Shown piece by piece: positions 4,843 through 37,087 of a stretch of 64,000 nucleotides of DNA. The notes below the pieces were generated by a model that worked only from the letters and a program-made list of their open reading frames with translations, had not been told where the DNA came from and searched no databases. Origin of the DNA: Natrialba sp. SSL1 (GTDB lineage: Archaea > Halobacteriota > Halobacteria > Halobacteriales > Natrialbaceae); assembly GCF_001861355.1 (NCBI RefSeq), contig NZ_MASN01000027.1, positions 1-64,000 of the forward strand, read 5' to 3'. Numbering within the stretch: position 1 is the first letter of the stretch; each line of letters begins with the position of its first letter. Both the position numbers and the translations under genes were made by a program.

Positions 4843-7614
4843 ATGAGCGAAACGCTCTCGAATCGATATGCGGATGCAGTTATTTCGTACCGGCGATGGA
4901 TCATCGTCTTCGTGCTCCTGCTGACCGCTGTCGTGGCGGCCGGTATCGTGCTGGGTGATGACCCAGTCGATGACGATGGTGCTCAATTTGATGTTGACTC
5001 ACCGGAAACGGCAGCACTCGAGGAGATCGAAGAAACCTACGCAGCCGACACGCAGCCGCTCACCCAGGTTGTCGTTCGAGACGATGGTGGTGACGTTCTC
5101 ACCCGCGAGTCGCTACTCGAAGGACTCCGGTTTCAACAAGAGCTTCAGGAGACAGAGTCGATTAATCAGACCCTGGAAGAGAACGGCACAGTCGGCCTCG
5201 AAAACGTCGTCGCGACGGTCGCCGTCTTCGAGGATCGCGCGGTTGGGAGTGATGCAAACGGCGCACACGATACCAGCGAGCCGACACTCGAGGAGCAACG
5301 GCAGGCACTCGAGTCCCGGTCTGCTGAAGAAGTCGAAGGGTTGCTGGGGAGGGTTTTGGACCCGGATCCGGATCCGGAGCAGGAGCAGGAGCAGGAGCTG
5401 CGAGGCGGCGACGATCCGTATGCGTTCCTTCCGACCTCGTACGAACCCGGTTCTGTCGAGTCTGAATCCCGACTCGTGTTGTTGTTCCACGAGGGGGATG
5501 ACGGGACAGATGGTGGACCGAGCGGAACAGATAGCGGACCGAGCGGGACAACTGACGGGACGAGTGACGGCGAAACGGCACCCGTCGTCGCCGACGCACA
5601 GCTAGCGATCGAATCGGTGTTCGAGGAGCGCTTCGACGATGGCTTCGTCTTCGGTGAGGGGATCACCGACGCCGCGAGTGCGAGCGCAGTTGGCGACAGT
5701 TTCGCGATCATCACGCCCGTCGCGTTCGTGTTGGTGTTGTTCGTCCTCGCAGTCACGTATCGTGACCTCGTCGACGTACTCATCGGATTCCTCGGAATCG
5801 GGGTCGTGATGGCCTGGATCGGTGGGGTTCAGGGCTGGCTCGCGATACCCGGCGATTCGATGCTGATTGCCGTACCGTTCTTGCTGGTCGGGTTATCCAT
5901 CGACTACTCGTTACACGTCGTAATGCGGTACCGAGAAGCGAGAGGTGGTGGGCCTGCACAGAGTGCGGCTGTAGCGGGGAACGACGCAGCAGTTACGACC
6001 ACCGAGACAGCAGTGACGGCCGCTGACGGCATGCGCCGCGGGTTCGCCGGCGTCGTCCTCGCACTCGCTGCCGCGACGGTCTCGACCGGCGTCGGGTTCT
6101 TCTCGAACGTCGTCAGTCCACTGCCCGCCATCCAGAACTTCGCAGTGTTGAGCGCAAGCGGCATTCTCGCGACGTTCATCGCCTTCGGTGCGTTCGTGCC
6201 CGCAGTGAAAACCGAGATCGACGAGCAACTCGAGAAGCGGTTCGACCGGACGCGCGCGAAGCAGCCGTTCGGAATGGACGCCGGCATCGTTCACGGTGCA
6301 CTCGAGCGCATCGTCTCACTCGTTCGAACGGCCCCGGTCGGCGTGATTGTCGTCGCGTTCTTGCTTGCGAGTGCGGGGGCGTACGGTGCAACCGGGCTGG
6401 ATACGGAGTTCAACCAGGCTGACTTCCTGCCGGAAGACGCACCAGAGTGGGCGAAGGCACTTCCCGGACCGCTTGCTCCGGACACCTACACGGTGAGCGA
6501 CGATCTGTCGTACCTTGGTGAACACTTCGCAGATCACGGCCCGGACTCACAGTCACAGATACTGATACAGGGTGATGTAACCGATCCGGAAACGCTCACC
6601 GCAGTACGGAGCGCTACTGCGACCGTTGGAGGTGGAGGAGAAGATGGAGATGGCGGCGGAGGAGTGGATGGAGAGAATAGTACAGACGCGAACACGACGA
6701 TTGACGTTCGCGCCGACGGAACTGCAGCGATCGATGGCCCACAGACACTCATCGCGTCGCTCAGCGCGGAGAACGAGACGGTTGCATCCGAGCTCGAACA
6801 GCGAGACGCGACCGGAAACGGACTTCCCGACGAGGACGTCGACGGGTTCTACGACATCCTGTTCGATGCAGACGAAGAAGCGGCCGCATCGGTGCTCTAC
6901 CGGACAGATGACGGCGAGTACGAGTCAGCACGACTGCTCCTCTCCGTTCGTAGCGATGCCGCGTCACAGAGCGTCGCATCGGATACGAAGACTGTTGCAG
7001 CGGCGATTTCGAGTTCGGCTCCTGTAACGGCAACTGCAACCGGCGGTGTTGTGACGACTGCCGTCGTCCAGGATGCGCTCCTCGAGACGCTCGTTCAGGC
7101 GTTCACGATCACCGTCGTCGTGATCCTCGTCTTCCTGACGCTCCTCTACTGGGTTCGCCACCGAGCACCATCGCTTGGCGCACTCACACTTGCACCGGTC
7201 GTCGTAGCACTGGCGTGGCTCCTCGGTGCGATGGCACTCCTCGACGTCCCGTTCAACACTGAGACGGTCGTGATGACGAGCCTCGCGATCGGTCTCGGTG
7301 TCGACTACAGTATTCACGTCAGCGAACGATTCATCGACGAGCGCACAAACGGAACGCCACTTTCCGAAGCAGTGAGGGCGACAATAACCGGGACCGGCGG
7401 TGCGCTCCTGGGAAGTGCGGCGACGACAGCAGCCGGGTTCGGCGTTCTCGCACTCTCACTTTCGCCACCGCTTCGCCGCTTCGGACTCGTCACCGGACTC
7501 AGTATCATCTTCGCGCTGGTCGCGTGTCTGACGGTCTTGCCGTGTTTGCTCGTGCTTCGAGCGCGACTCCTCGAGGCACTCGAACGCAGAGACCGTGAGG
7601 AGCAACACCTATGA
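4843..7614 (+). CDS. RND superfamily (MMPL-type) exporter
   Basis: 923 aa. The layout is the duplicated RND plan: one TM helix at residues 17-37, a large extracellular domain, a block of TM helices, then a second copy. The signature segment that ends in the Asp-containing helix appears twice (LSIDYSLHVVMRY near 352 and LGVDYSIHVSERF near 816). Family members are proton- or Na+-driven exporters of lipids or hydrophobic molecules. Two low-complexity insertions, DPDPDPEQEQEQEL (about 173-186) and a Gly/Thr/Asp/Ser stretch (about 222-244), sit in the first outer domain. The start at ATG 4843 is preceded by a GGAGAGGTGAT ribosome site; an in-frame TTG lies one codon earlier. Confidence 0.92.
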   Translation: MSETLSNRYADAVISYRRWIIVFVLLLTAVVAAGIVLGDDPVDDDGAQFDVDSPETAALEEIEETYAADTQPLTQVVVRDDGGDVLTRESLLEGLRFQQELQETESINQTLEENGTVGLENVVATVAVFEDRAVGSDANGAHDTSEPTLEEQRQALESRSAEEVEGLLGRVLDPDPDPEQEQEQELRGGDDPYAFLPTSYEPGSVESESRLVLLFHEGDDGTDGGPSGTDSGPSGTTDGTSDGETAPVVADAQLAIESVFEERFDDGFVFGEGITDAASASAVGDSFAIITPVAFVLVLFVLAVTYRDLVDVLIGFLGIGVVMAWIGGVQGWLAIPGDSMLIAVPFLLVGLSIDYSLHVVMRYREARGGGPAQSAAVAGNDAAVTTTETAVTAADGMRRGFAGVVLALAAATVSTGVGFFSNVVSPLPAIQNFAVLSASGILATFIAFGAFVPAVKTEIDEQLEKRFDRTRAKQPFGMDAGIVHGALERIVSLVRTAPVGVIVVAFLLASAGAYGATGLDTEFNQADFLPEDAPEWAKALPGPLAPDTYTVSDDLSYLGEHFADHGPDSQSQILIQGDVTDPETLTAVRSATATVGGGGEDGDGGGGVDGENSTDANTTIDVRADGTAAIDGPQTLIASLSAENETVASELEQRDATGNGLPDEDVDGFYDILFDADEEAAASVLYRTDDGEYESARLLLSVRSDAASQSVASDTKTVAAAISSSAPVTATATGGVVTTAVVQDALLETLVQAFTITVVVILVFLTLLYWVRHRAPSLGALTLAPVVVALAWLLGAMALLDVPFNTETVVMTSLAIGLGVDYSIHVSERFIDERTNGTPLSEAVRATITGTGGALLGSAATTAAGFGVLALSLSPPLRRFGLVTGLSIIFALVACLTVLPCLLVLRARLLEALERRDREEQHL

Positions 7615-22106: not shown

Positions 22107-23081
22107 TCACCTGTCGACAGCAGTTGTCGCCGGACTAGCCCGTTTCGCGGTCTCTGTTTCTGTTTCTGTTCCTGTTTCTGCGCCAGTTTCAGTTCCAATT
22201 CCAATCCCAGTCCCTCTTCCTGTCACTGTCCTCTCGCCGGAACTGTCGCCAGGAATCTCCGCATCCGCCATCAGGAGCACGCGTCGTTCGGTGTACTCGA
22301 GTCCGTTCTTGCGCTGGCGCTTCCGTCTGATCGCGAGCCGATGCTTCGAGAGATCGAGCAGGGCGTCGATCGTCCTGGAGACGAGTTTCTTCGCGTAGCT
22401 CTCGCTAATGCCCGTCTCCTGTCTGCGGATCCAGTGTTTCATCTCGCTCGCCGTGACGTATTCGCGAACGCCGGCACAGCCGTTCTCCCAGGGGTTGTCG
22501 CCAACGCCCGGGTCAGTCCGTGCCTTCCAGAGCCGCGCCGCAAGTCGCGACGGCAGCGAGGAGACCGTCGCGTGGAGCATATCGTCGTCCATGGTCGCGA
22601 GTTGCTGAATCGGCAGGAGATCACCGTGTGCGAGCGCGACGTTACCGCCACGCCCGAGCGGGTCATCGCTCTCGGGGAGTCGGAAGTACTGTCTGCCGTC
22701 GTCCTTGCAGATGCGCTCGAGACGGTCATCGGCGACGTCGACCTCGGTTTCGTCGACGTGCGTTTCGAGCAGATGGGCACCCTTCTCGAGTTCGCGGGCC
22801 TGGAGTTCGGTGATGCGCGCTTTGTTCGCGGCGAGTTTCTTCGCGTGGGCGTCCAGTCGCGCCTCGACGGGCGGCTGTGCGTCTTCGAGGTCGTCGATAC
22901 GAGTCCGGAGCCGGTCGTTTGTCGTCCGCGCTCGGTCGAGTGCCGTCTCGAGCGTCTCGAGTCGCGTGTCTTTCTTCTCGAGTTCGTCCTCGAGGGTGGT
23001 CACCCGCTCGCGCAGGGCTTCGAGTTCGGCAGTCAGTGCGTGCAGTGCGTTTGCGTCGGAGTGCTGGTGTTGTGTACTCAT
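22107..23081 (-). CDS. coiled-coil/HTH protein next to the TnpB-like gene
   Basis: 324 aa from ATG 23081. Residues 8-110 form a long coiled coil (ALTAELEALRERVTTLEDEL, LETALDRARTTNDRLRTRID). The middle holds a compact domain (RQYFRLPESDDPLGRGGNVA, LARLWKARTDPGVGDNPW) and then an HTH-like helix pair (YVTASEMKHWIRRQETGISE, SYAKKLVSRTIDALLDL). The tail is a low-complexity Gly/Thr/Glu tract. I know no named family. It lies downstream of the TnpB-like gene on the same strand, 400 bp away, and could be its partner or a replication/partition-type protein of a mobile element. A 91-residue in-frame upstream extension is open but repetitive. Confidence 0.75.
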   Translation of the reverse strand: MSTQHQHSDANALHALTAELEALRERVTTLEDELEKKDTRLETLETALDRARTTNDRLRTRIDDLEDAQPPVEARLDAHAKKLAANKARITELQARELEKGAHLLETHVDETEVDVADDRLERICKDDGRQYFRLPESDDPLGRGGNVALAHGDLLPIQQLATMDDDMLHATVSSLPSRLAARLWKARTDPGVGDNPWENGCAGVREYVTASEMKHWIRRQETGISESYAKKLVSRTIDALLDLSKHRLAIRRKRQRKNGLEYTERRVLLMADAEIPGDSSGERTVTGRGTGIGIGTETGAETGTETETETAKRASPATTAVDR

Positions 23082-23477
23082 GTCTGGTGTGGGGTGGTGT
23101 GTTCGGCGCGTGTAACCGAGAGTCGGCGCTGTGTCGCTGCAGGTGGGTGGTGTGCTGTCGGTCGATGCTGTGTCGTGGGTCGGCGGTGTGTCGCTGGGAG
23201 CCGGTGCTGTCCCGTCGATCGATGCGATTGGTGTGGACACCGGTCGGCGAAAATGGGTGGTCGAACCCGCGGCCGGGTGTTGGTACTGCCGGTGCCACCG
23301 CGGTTTGACGGTGTCGTGCGGTTTGACAGCGTCACTGCGGTTTGCCGGTACCACTGTGGCTTGGCGGTCTCACTGCGAGCCCGTTTGGTGCCGGGTCGGC
23401 AGTGGTTGCGGTGGCGACAGTGGCGATGGCGGTGACAGTGGCGACGGTGGTGATAGTGAAGATCGTAATGGTGGCGA
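23082..23477. repeat. repeat-rich spacer between the TnpB-like and coiled-coil genes
   Basis: This 396-bp spacer carries a run of imperfect 12-bp units of the type ACTGTCGCCACC/ACTATCACCACC (minus-strand reading, about 23395-23490) and, nearer the coiled-coil gene, repeated GTCAAACCGC and GACACCG phrases. A frame of 91 codons in phase with the coiled-coil gene is open across it, but its Thr/Pro/Asp composition follows from the repeats. In TnpB elements the guide-RNA scaffold lies at this place (3' of tnpB), so the spacer deserves attention. Confidence 0.5.
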
Positions 23478-24233: not shown

Positions 24234-24450
24234 GATCACTGTCCGTCGGCTCGAAGCAGATTGCGTCGTCGCCCGCGACGTGAATCGTGTCGTAGTGGGT
24301 GGCGGGGTCGCGGGTGGGTATTGCTGCGGGGAACTCTGTCGGTGGGCGGGTGGCAGGTGCGTCTGCGCTGTTCTCGTGGCCTGTCTGCTGGCCAGCTATA
24401 CCATCGTCTAGTGGGCAATGTTCATTGCCCCTCGGTTGCTCGTTCTTCAT
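24223..24450 (-). CDS. short ORF overlapping the TnpB-like start (tentative)
   Basis: 75 codons from ATG 24450, ending TAA at 24223, so it overlaps the downstream gene by a few codons. The product is acidic and polar (MKNEQPRGNEHCPLDDGIAG, AGDDAICFEPTDSDRDA), a haloarchaeal-looking composition, but has no known domain. The reading frame is open back to 24549 through the folded element. It could be a small partner protein, a leader peptide or chance. The overlap supports translational coupling. Confidence 0.35.
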   Translation of the reverse strand: MKNEQPRGNEHCPLDDGIAGQQTGHENSADAPATRPPTEFPAAIPTRDPATHYDTIHVAGDDAICFEPTDSDRDA

Positions 24451-24540
24451 GGCTTCTTGAACCCGTGCAGGGATCGGAAGCCAAGTCCGGCGTGTGGGGG
24501 CACGCCGGGCAGTTTTCATGCCCGTACAGACCTGGCTTCT
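24410..24540 (-). ncRNA. candidate structured RNA or leader with a three-way junction
   Basis: Read on the minus strand, 24539-24529 pairs with 24487-24477 (GAAGCCAGGTC with GACTTGGCTTC), an 11-bp stem. Its one non-Watson-Crick pair is G-U on this strand and would be A-C on the other. Inside are hairpin GGGCA-TGAAAAC-TGCCC (5-bp stem, 7-nt loop) and hairpin GGCGTG-CCCCCA-CACGCC (6-bp stem). Downstream, GGCTTC can instead pair with a second GAAGCC that touches ATG 24450, and GGGCAATG-AA-CATTGCCC follows (about 24415-24432). The fold precedes the TnpB-like gene. It could be a regulatory leader, a guide-type RNA or a transposon-end palindrome. Confidence 0.5.
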
Positions 24541-24657
24541 AATCCACATCTTGTAACGCTAGGCACATAATATTTACTGAGAATTGCGCAGTAGATGCTG
24601 GCTTACGAAGAATGAATGCTGTGGGTATAGCATTAACTCCATGTAACCGGGAATACT

Positions 24658-24954
24658 ATGAGTTTAACAGTGAATACCGTACGTAAGATGCGACAGCCTG
24701 CGGATTGGATGGTCCCCAGTGATGATCGAATACTTGAGTTGCTTCGAGAGGAAGGAAACCTCACGCCACAGGCTGTTGAGGATTTTGGAGGTCCCGTTGC
24801 CGGGCACGCAAGTGATCGTCTCCCCGTGCTAGCTCAGTATGGGCTCGTCACGAAAATCTCTAGAGGGCTCTATCGAATCACCGACAGTGGGGAAGCGTAT
24901 CTCGATGAGGACCTCGACGCGAACGAACTCGAGTCGGTTGCAGATTCTGAGTAG
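24658..24954 (+). CDS. winged-helix DNA-binding protein of the phage PhiH1-repressor type
   Basis: 98 aa. The core is a winged helix: ADWMVPSDDRILELLREEGN, then LTPQAVEDFGGPVAGHASDR and LPVLAQYGLVTKISRGLYRI, ending in an acidic tail. Proteins of this pattern are frequent in haloarchaeal proviruses and islands as repressors. It is divergent from the TnpB-like unit, with only about 200 bp between, so it may control either the island or that unit; this is inference from position. Confidence 0.85.
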   Translation: MSLTVNTVRKMRQPADWMVPSDDRILELLREEGNLTPQAVEDFGGPVAGHASDRLPVLAQYGLVTKISRGLYRITDSGEAYLDEDLDANELESVADSE

Positions 24955-27356: not shown

Positions 27357-28610
27357 TTAGGGGTTGAATTCAGTTATTGAACAGTTTTCGACTTTTTTGA
27401 CGTAGATTTTCACTCCCTCCCTCCATTCTTCCAGATGGTCCGCGGTGGCGACTGATTCGGATTCTCCCAGTGCCTCTCCAAAGGTGTCTTGCCTCTCCTC
27501 AAGTTCTTCTAGTAGATCTTGTAGTGATTTCTTTTCTACATCATCCTGCTGCTTCTCTCTGATTGCGGCATAGTGCTGAGCAAGACGCTTCTGCTCATCT
27601 GCAACCGCATAGATATCTTTCCAACCTTCCATCCAGTCTCTACAAACTCTGCAGTCACACGGTTCGGTGTGATCTTCTCCCAATTGAACCGCCTCAGCGA
27701 TACCTACGAATTCTTTGATTGGTTCGAAGTAGTAGCGGGAGGCTCCACCACCTCCTCCGTCCTGTGATTTCAGCTTCTCTGATGCTGACTCGCTGTAATT
27801 GATACCGAACCCAGTTCCCTGAAGTCCAAATATCGAGAGCAGGTTAGAGAAATAGCTTCCGTAGAAAAAATGCGGTGCAACATCTTGGTCGGAGATTCGA
27901 CTGACCAAGTCTACTGTGCTTACATAGTGACCTCTACTGGATTCTCTCTTATCGAGGCCTTCAATCCAGAGGAAGACCTCATTGATTGGAGCATCACCAA
28001 GGTAGTTAGCGAGTCCTTCTCTGAAGTTCACGTCAGTTACCAAACGCCGTTTCATAAAGATGCACGGCTTTACTGGATGATCTGTATATTCAACCGTATC
28101 TGAGATGATCTGCTTGTTGTATTCGAGGTCTTTCTCAGTAGAGAGTTTCACGTACCACGGTATAACCGCTTTTGGGAGCAAATCGTATTCAGCATCCGAT
28201 AGCGAGTACCTCTTGAGTGTTGAATCAGCATGCTCGTCAAGAATCTCCAGTTGGAAATCCACAGTCGTTTCCACGACATTCCTTTGATTCTCACGGCTAA
28301 GATCTTGATAACGTAGATTACCTTCCTCCTGTATTTTACTAACTACGATATCTTCATAGAAATCCACCAATCTGTGACTCCATTGTTTCAGATTCCCGGA
28401 GTCTTCGAGGAAGTTATCCCCTTCTCGAAAAGTTGGCAGGTAAGGATTGATGTAATATTCTTGCTCCAGATTTGAAACACGACCTGAAACCTGCTCTGCG
28501 TGTTCTATGGCGAAGTGAGCCGGGATGATGAGTGAGTCGATATACTCAGAGGATCGATCTACTGAGGGGCCTTCACCGGGATGATTGTAATGGAGACTAT
28601 TTTCGAACAT
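27357..28610 (-). CDS. TGT/DpdA-like protein with CxCxxC-x22-H zinc signature
   Basis: 417 aa from ATG 28610 (a GTG precedes). The C-terminal part has PCDCRVCRDW followed 22 residues after the last Cys by QHYAAIREK, the CxCxxC...H zinc site of tRNA-guanine transglycosylases and of DpdA, which inserts deazaguanine bases into DNA. The preceding region (NEVFLWIEGLDKRESS, PHFFYGSYFSNLL, GTGFGINYSES) has alternating strands and helices compatible with the TIM barrel. I cannot place the catalytic Asp pair, so the family call rests on the zinc site and fold pattern. It is the last gene of a tight three-gene operon, overlapping the nuclease-like gene by 14 bp. It could be a divergent DNA- or RNA-modifying enzyme. 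Confidence 0.55.
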   Translation of the reverse strand: MFENSLHYNHPGEGPSVDRSSEYIDSLIIPAHFAIEHAEQVSGRVSNLEQEYYINPYLPTFREGDNFLEDSGNLKQWSHRLVDFYEDIVVSKIQEEGNLRYQDLSRENQRNVVETTVDFQLEILDEHADSTLKRYSLSDAEYDLLPKAVIPWYVKLSTEKDLEYNKQIISDTVEYTDHPVKPCIFMKRRLVTDVNFREGLANYLGDAPINEVFLWIEGLDKRESSRGHYVSTVDLVSRISDQDVAPHFFYGSYFSNLLSIFGLQGTGFGINYSESASEKLKSQDGGGGGASRYYFEPIKEFVGIAEAVQLGEDHTEPCDCRVCRDWMEGWKDIYAVADEQKRLAQHYAAIREKQQDDVEKKSLQDLLEELEERQDTFGEALGESESVATADHLEEWREGVKIYVKKVENCSITEFNP

Positions 28611-28992
28611 CACGTAGTATATATTCGTTTATCCGGGAGGTTGCGTGGTCACTAGTCTCATTCTTATTGGGAGTTGATAAACATTTCACTTGATCACTCA
28701 CAGATAACAGACCGATGTCGCACTGCTCAATTCGGCTGACAAGGTCCTCGGTGGCATATTCCTCCCAAACGGAGAGGTATGAGTAATTAACAAGAGTCTG
28801 GTTCCTCTCAGCTTGTTGAATTCCTCGCTTAAAATCTTTAGTCTTCAGTTCGACTGATACTGTCTCTTTACCATTGGTTCCCAGAATATCGATTGGAATA
28901 GAGTAAAGACGCGACTCCGTCATAAACTCAAACCCTTCCTTTTCAAGATATTCTGCTACAATCCCTAGCTGGTACTTCTCTGGCCAATACAT
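28597..28992 (-). CDS. PD-(D/E)XK-like nuclease domain protein
   Basis: 131 aa. A hydrophobic strand with Asp (SIPIDILGTNG) is followed by VSVELKTKDF and GIQQAERN, the D-x(n)-ExK-Q order of the PD-(D/E)XK nuclease fold. The protein is small, as many single-domain resolvase- or restriction-like members are. It starts 2 bp after the stop of the Panacea-like gene and overlaps the TGT-like gene, so the three are co-translated. A role in cleaving foreign or unmodified DNA is inferred from this pairing. Confidence 0.6.
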   Translation of the reverse strand: MYWPEKYQLGIVAEYLEKEGFEFMTESRLYSIPIDILGTNGKETVSVELKTKDFKRGIQQAERNQTLVNYSYLSVWEEYATEDLVSRIEQCDIGLLSVSDQVKCLSTPNKNETSDHATSRINEYILRDVRK

Positions 28993-28994
28993 CC

Positions 28995-29501
28995 TCAGTC
29001 CAAGACTTCGTCCTTAATTTTCGAGTTTTTGGTGTATTCAGGGTACTGATTGTAGACGTATTCAAGAAGTTCGTCGAGTTCGAGATTAGAGTATTCCTCG
29101 ATTATTTCGTCTATCTCAGATTCAACACTGTCATCCATGGCTTCCTCTAGTTTCTTGGTTATTTTGTGACCCTTCTCAGTCATCACGAATTGTTTCCCTG
29201 AATACTGGCTTTGATCTTCATTATCCCGTATCTCGTCAACCTCTGAATCGGGTGAGACCATCTCAATAGCATCCACTGCCAAGAGGAACTCGATAGCGTT
29301 GTAGATTTCCTCGGAGAAAGGCCCGTAATCGTAAGCCTCAAACTCGAACGTAGCCTTCTCGTGGATGTCAGAAAACTCAGTTTCCTCTTGGATTAAGAAA
29401 AACAACTTCTGAAGCCGTGTCACCCCTTCAACAGAGTCCGCATGGTGGAGGAGAATGAAAGCGAGGTCTTTCTGGCGATCTATGGTATCTATCTGTGCCA
29501 T
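28995..29501 (-). CDS. Panacea/DUF4065 (SocA/YwgA)-like protein
   Basis: 168 aa. The segment VEGVTRLQKLFFLIQEETEF followed by FEFEAYDYGPFSEEIYNAIE matches the core of the Panacea/DUF4065 group, in which a Lys-rich helix precedes a GPFS/GPV turn; family members often act as antitoxins or as specificity modules in accessory systems. The C-terminus is acidic and helical. It heads the operon with the nuclease-like and TGT-like genes. A TATATCTC box near 29566 lies about 65 bp upstream. Confidence 0.65.
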   Translation of the reverse strand: MAQIDTIDRQKDLAFILLHHADSVEGVTRLQKLFFLIQEETEFSDIHEKATFEFEAYDYGPFSEEIYNAIEFLLAVDAIEMVSPDSEVDEIRDNEDQSQYSGKQFVMTEKGHKITKKLEEAMDDSVESEIDEIIEEYSNLELDELLEYVYNQYPEYTKNSKIKDEVLD

Positions 29502-34525: not shown

Positions 34526-34562
34526 GTTGATAACACGTCTATGGCTCGTGTGCGTATAAGGG

Positions 34563-36896: not shown

Positions 36897-37087
36897 ACAG
36901 CGCTAGCTCAGCGCCCGTGGAATCTCGGTTTGCTTCTTTGGTGGACTCTCCGTCTCGAGTGTCACCGTCCGACTACCGCTTCCCATCGCTCGCTCATCGG
37001 CGATCGGTTCCCGTCCGATCGCTGTGAGCAACGTGATCGGTCCGTAGACCGATTCAGTGGGGACTCCCGTTCACCCGAGCGCGGCAT

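Follow-up and report, generated by a model that had tools for sequence, protein, structure and literature searches.

The DNA analysed here, a stretch of 64,000 nucleotides from Natrialba sp. SSL1 that we refer to throughout as the window, harbors a gene for a small TnpB-like protein, and a short way upstream of it lies a segment that can be folded into a three-way junction. The initial annotation read the two as partners and, since the RNA lies on the 5' side, likened the arrangement to IscB-type loci. The locus raises the question of what such a structured RNA belongs to: the protein, the DNA repeats from which it is built, or the operon at whose head it stands.

Both folding and comparison with homologues confirm a three-way junction on the minus strand, between 24545 and 24477 (Table 1). 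The closing stem, P1, had been described from the letters as 11 bp long with a single odd pair, which is correct for the first 11 of its 13 pairs, where one G-U occurs; pair 12 is U-G. Two enclosed hairpins had also been described, and both are present, although their sizes had been slightly mixed up, as the 7-nt loop belongs to the 6-bp stem. A possible outward extension of P1 is peculiar to the window copy and is altered in locus L012. Among the homologues, the small hairpin P4 is paired in 85.5% of cells, with double changes in two of its pairs, and the hairpin within the first codons of ORF1, P5, is paired in 83% of cells and displays double-sided changes in all seven of its pairs. The P5 stem is kept even where the residues that it encodes have changed (PRGNEH, PRAHNC, PRDLEG).

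Table 1. Positions, in the window, of the leader, its promoter and the neighboring genes
Feature	Position	Strand	Basis or remark
Divergent winged-helix repressor, PhiH1/BJ1/SNJ2 type	24658..24954	+	
TATA-box-like element TAAATATTA, leader promoter	24568..24576	-	AT-rich, ~25-30 nt before P1
Possible outward extension of P1, GGAUU/GAUCC	24541..24545	-	5 bp; fold
Three-way junction	24477..24539	-	fold; covariation, n=44 homologues; RNAalifold on sequence-only alignments of both classes
P1	GAAGCCAGGUCUG 24539-24527 with CGGACUUGGCUUC 24489-24477	-	13 bp
P2	24524-24519 with 24511-24506	-	6 bp, 7-nt loop
P3	24505-24501 with 24494-24490	-	5 bp, 6-nt loop
Segment b, GGCUUC	24477..24482	-	in P1 3' strand; common to both rival pairings
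P4, small hairpin, CCC/GGG in the window	24462..24472	-	between P1 3' strand and start codon
Segment a', GAAGCC	24451..24456	-	copy of P1 5' strand; adjoins start codon ATG 24450
ORF1, 75 aa	24223..24450	-	first gene behind leader; start codon at 24450
P5, hairpin in first ORF1 codons, GGGCAAU GAAC AUUGCCC	24413..24430	-	
TnpB-derived RuvC + zinc-finger protein, 253 aa	23478..24239	-	variable operon cargo
Coiled-coil protein	22107..23354	-	frequent operon member; weak coiled-coil matches only

It is conservation, rather than folding energy, that sets the junction beyond chance. The computed energy over 151 nt is -62.3 kcal/mol on the minus strand (z = -4.4) and -60.5 kcal/mol on the plus strand (z = -3.1). 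When z values were ranked over 3120 90-nt segments of the 64 kb, however, the junction stretch came only 21st on the plus strand and 40th on the minus strand, so energy proves little in this GC-rich DNA and the argument from an energy outlier was dropped. The strongest plus-strand fold of that scan is located elsewhere, at 36981-37070 (z -5.4), where the minus strand is also strong (z -4.4).

The comparative evidence comes from two classes of homologue. In alignment A3, which comprises 44 class-1 rows and was fitted to the model structure, so that its pair counts are flattered (alignments A1 and A4 were not fitted), 90.1% of cells pair, and 23 of the 31 pairs change on both sides, in 136 cells. 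The lack of compensatory changes in homologues had been named in advance as the result that would count against the fold, and these counts are its opposite. None of 500 shuffles matched either the observed pairing or the double-sided count, and the same structure slid along the class-1 alignment pairs at 31-45% of cells. The diverged class 2 was aligned by sequence alone, and on this alignment RNAalifold recovers P1, P2, P3, and P5 unaided, the named stems being paired in 94.8% of cells with nine double-sided pairs. In P1 and P2 taken together, G-U occupies 63 cells and A-C 18, an excess that points to the transcribed strand; together with the compensatory changes, it bears out the earlier suggestion that the function lies in an RNA of the minus strand.

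A second GAAGCC close to the start codon had been proposed as an alternative partner in the manner of a switch, and this is now upheld by covariation in both classes. The alternative is described with three segments: a and b, which pair with one another in P1, and a', which repeats the P1 5' strand. Within the ten bases that precede the AUG, every one of the 44 class-1 rows has 4-7 bases that can pair with the P1 3' strand, and in all 44 rows of A3 a' ends immediately 5' of the AUG. The longest complement between b and a' averages 5.68 bases, against 3.85 with swapped partners (maximum 4.5 in 2000 trials) and 3.18 after shuffling. The two segments change jointly in class 1, as GGTCGG/CCGACC, GCTCGG/CCGAGC, GCTTGG/CCAAGC, GGCTTC/GAAGCC, and GGGTCGT/ACGACCC, and class 2 shows a concerted change of all three segments, from ACGGGAG/GGCTCCCGT/ACGGAAGCC to ACGCGAG/GGCTCGCGT/ACGCAAGCC for a/b/a'. 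The pairing is reduced to four perfect bp in L053, L055, L060, and L076. That the repeated segment would form a second, exclusive hairpin abutting the AUG is strongly supported by these comparisons, as are the leader family itself and both of its pairings. The two states are mutually exclusive, and the computed gap between them runs from -4.7 to +7.3 kcal/mol under standard conditions, as opposed to molar KCl. It is near zero in BJ1, Harhisp1, and L085, and for the window copy and SNJ2 the calculation favors the junction over the alternative by ~7 kcal/mol. Both states mostly leave the start codon itself unpaired. As in riboswitches, a conserved structured part is thus combined with an alternative structure for expression, and the exclusion of the junction by b:a' pairing is one of the characters by which we propose to recognize a PhiH1-type early leader.

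Repeats, both inverted and direct, that lie close to a repressor gene could also be DNA operators or recombination sites, whether as half-sites for the repressor or as a single-strand DNA structure. We consider this most improbable: G-U is preferred to A-C in P1 and P2, palindromes are found upstream at the TATA box, the class-2 b:a' helix retains one mismatch in 12 of 14 cases, and attP is annotated elsewhere in Harhisp1 and Halfgib1.

The leader is widespread among haloarchaea. A covariance model built from 13 leaders (R1) matches 58 places in 49 of 125 Natrialbaceae genomes, and across the Halobacteriales it finds matches in 63 of 392 genomes and 27 of 95 genera; in a phylum-wide sample of 148 genomes only four have matches, all of them Halobacteriales. 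Class 2 is present in 163 of the 392 Halobacteriales genomes, representing 49 of the 95 genera. Natrialba sp. SSL1 itself holds further leaders of both classes, at C48:2810-2934 (L059), C51:11589-11749 (L093), and C41:1127-1287. Rfam has no match at the leader, its only hit in the window being 16S rRNA, and gave none in ten homologous loci. Nor was a description of the leader found in open-access papers; an earlier mention of the T4 leader structure may exist in the first PhiH publications (1989-1994) or in the 2007 paper on PhiCh1, which lay outside that search. We are thus dealing with a widespread and apparently undescribed RNA element of the early genes of haloarchaeal viruses and mobile elements.

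The viruses supply the position of the element in a transcript. R1 or the further model R2 matches Harhisp1, Humcor1, BJ1, SNJ2, HRPV9, and Halfgib1, in each of which the leader separates the next operon from the repressor gene or, in Humcor1, from the region that corresponds to that gene. By score, R1 misses the T4-type leaders of PhiH1 and PhiCh1, and R2 gives a weak match in PhiCh1 (10.1 bits, E 0.56). These two leaders are too diverged for the models, yet the stretch that separates the first early gene from the divergent repressor (in PhiCh1, the rep/ORF49 gap) again folds into the junction, with a long P1 and an A-containing P2 loop, and the two leaders differ from one another by compensatory changes in P1 (GAC..GUC vs GUC..GAC) and P3. 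As they are recognized by position and fold, their homology rests on architecture and on these compensatory differences. The PhiH1 record places the start of the early lytic transcript T4 at base 34556, which is the first base of P1; in PhiH1 at least, the transcript therefore carries the junction at its 5' end. T4 is shut off by Rep (PMC4284463). A covarying three-way junction at the 5' end of the transcript is another of the characters that we propose for the family. The TATA-box-like element occupies the same place in homologues, in many with an adjoining palindrome (e.g. CTGACGACTCGTCAG), and, together with the recorded T4 start, it suggests that the window transcript begins near 24541..24545. 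In the PhiH1 and PhiCh1 leaders, the repeat of the P1 strand (GAAGGCA) starts 73 nt ahead of the AUG and does not abut the start codon, and any coupling to translation may therefore differ in these viruses. An exact-pattern scan of viral contigs added one more, a 52-kb uncultivated viral contig (L109) with a leader at 5099-5153; a relative of the window repressor was not detected in the 10 kb of it that were examined.

With regard to the genes that accompany the leader, the constant neighbor is the repressor. The window repressor matches the transcriptional regulator family phrog_2440 (5e-32) and is 63% identical to BJ1 ORF20, and relatives of it are annotated as 'PhiH1-like repressor' in HHPV4 and HRPV9. 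A divergent PhiH1-like repressor, which is a further character of the proposed leader type and lies upstream in the window, accompanies 42 of the 44 class-1 loci, and a repressor of the SNJ2 type, likewise divergent, is found in all 22 class-2 loci examined. The genes behind the leader are varied. ORF1 is kept in relatives at 36-88% identity, and family searches with it gave no match. A coiled-coil gene lies within 1.5 kb in 25 of the 44 class-1 loci, and other class-1 cargo includes coiled-coil, zinc-ribbon, and HNH-like proteins, named by eye rather than by profile. Many class-2 loci carry SNJ2 recombination accessory and integrase genes. Elsewhere in the window, at 27357-29501, lies a possible defence or toxin-antitoxin set, in which two genes that adjoin on the same strand (27357-28992) neighbor one that encodes a SocA/Panacea antitoxin-like domain (28995-29501).

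The TnpB-like protein matches the Pfam family Cas12f1-like_TNB (4.8e-08), and D14, E103, D188, and four cysteines are invariant across 31 homologues. Its relatives, at 55-92% identity, are found in Natrialbaceae, and upstream of them the same layout of TATA box, junction, and start codon recurs; a locus search that started from this protein yielded few loci. TnpB derivatives consisting only of the RuvC and zinc-finger parts are about half the length of TnpB and occur nearly always in repressor-controlled operons. A structured RNA lying 5' of a RuvC gene with intact catalytic residues invites comparison with the omega RNAs of IscB and TnpB, likewise structured RNAs beside a RuvC-type nuclease gene, and a trans-acting RNA or protein partner of this kind was in effect what the initial annotation had in mind. 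The link does not survive the wider comparison. Only 19 of the 44 class-1 loci have a RuvC gene within 1.5 kb, and the remaining 25 have no detectable one over that distance; viruses put integrase, RepH, or other genes behind the leader, and the same RNA heads SNJ2-type integrase operons, in PhiH1 the early lytic/RepH operon, and elsewhere operons devoid of a RuvC gene. No variable unpaired end segment resembling a guide is seen in alignments A1, A3, and A4, where the variable arms stay self-complementary, and in PhiH1 the transcript begins with P1 itself. Because the RNA stands before varied operons and its constant partner is the repressor, the IscB-type reading is unsupported; with its weak linkage and lack of a guide segment we reject a guide RNA and hold a role as an omega-like partner to be very improbable. 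Terminal palindromes of an IS200/IS605 element had been named as another explanation of the repeats, and none is seen at these loci, where the junction lies between the repressor gene and the start codon; the regions for which annotation is available show no TnpA gene next to the element.

At the head of a repressor-controlled early operon, the leader is probably a cis-acting switch that governs how the first gene is translated. A start at P1, an exclusive hairpin at the AUG, and a further hairpin within the first codons together make control of translation the best explanation. The operon itself would belong to a mobile element of viral origin. The transcript would begin at P1 or just before it, and the first RNA to emerge would be the junction, in which a pairs with b to enclose P2 and P3; P4, a', the AUG of the first gene, and P5 would come next. 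With b bound to a, the junction would be closed, and a' and the start region would be free; with b bound to a', the junction would be opened, and the AUG would be flanked by a hairpin that abuts it and, on the far side, by P5. The choice made by b would then set the translation of that gene, and possibly of genes coupled to it downstream, as a second control once the divergent repressor has permitted transcription. The balance might be tipped by a protein that binds the junction or the A-rich loop of P2, by temperature or salt, by the pace of transcription, or by an antisense RNA. A synthetic switch that masks the Shine-Dalgarno sequence and the AUG has been found to work in Haloferax volcanii in a salt-dependent manner (PMC8241225). 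Translational riboswitches and leader switches likewise combine a conserved junction with an exclusive pairing beside the start codon. The leader differs from translational riboswitches in that it has no known ligand and its masked segment contains no Shine-Dalgarno sequence, and its junction arms vary freely, whereas one would expect stronger conservation in the core of an aptamer.

The main rival to translational control is transcriptional antitermination or attenuation at the head of the early operon. The HK022 put RNAs and the lambda nut/boxB elements are RNA elements at the 5' end of early operons in temperate viruses, and the leader recalls them in that it opens the early operons of unrelated viruses irrespective of which gene comes first. 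In class 1, however, the second pairing ends directly 5' of the start codon and P5 lies inside the coding region; inspection of the alignments by eye found no conserved U-rich terminator between leader and gene, and the fixed relation to the start codon and the archaeal transcription machinery set the leader apart from the bacteriophage elements. We regard antitermination as unlikely. Still less likely is that the fold mainly sets a site for cleavage or for kissing with an antisense RNA, as in the T1/T-ant pair of PhiH, where T1 is processed through an antisense RNA (PMC4284463). Strong folding is likewise seen in the T1 leader of PhiH1, opposite whose end T-ant begins, but T-ant pertains to T1 and not to the T4 leader that matches the element. 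The T1 leader (L092 5583-5733) and its PhiCh1 counterpart (L091 10033-10182) have z values of about -4 each and an architecture unlike the T4-type junction.

Leaders of this kind occur in tailed viruses (Duplodnaviria) and in pleolipoviruses (Monodnaviria), and two fifths or more of the sampled Halobacteriales species have them in elements of their chromosomes and plasmids. It is possible, and we put it forward tentatively, that an ancient RNA shared by these unrelated virus lineages and elements acts as a switch free of a Shine-Dalgarno sequence, which together with a PhiH1-like repressor might decide between silent carriage and early expression. According to a 2021 paper, the fluoride switch of Thermococcus is the sole natural riboswitch to have been determined experimentally in archaea (PMC8241225), and a natural archaeal switch abutting the AUG would therefore stand out. 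It would be directly testable in established hosts, and the leader also offers a handle for finding proviruses. Since PhiH1, the control of lysogeny in haloviruses has been described mainly in terms of repressor proteins, and a conserved RNA at the head of the repressor-controlled transcript would add an RNA layer to the lysogeny decision.
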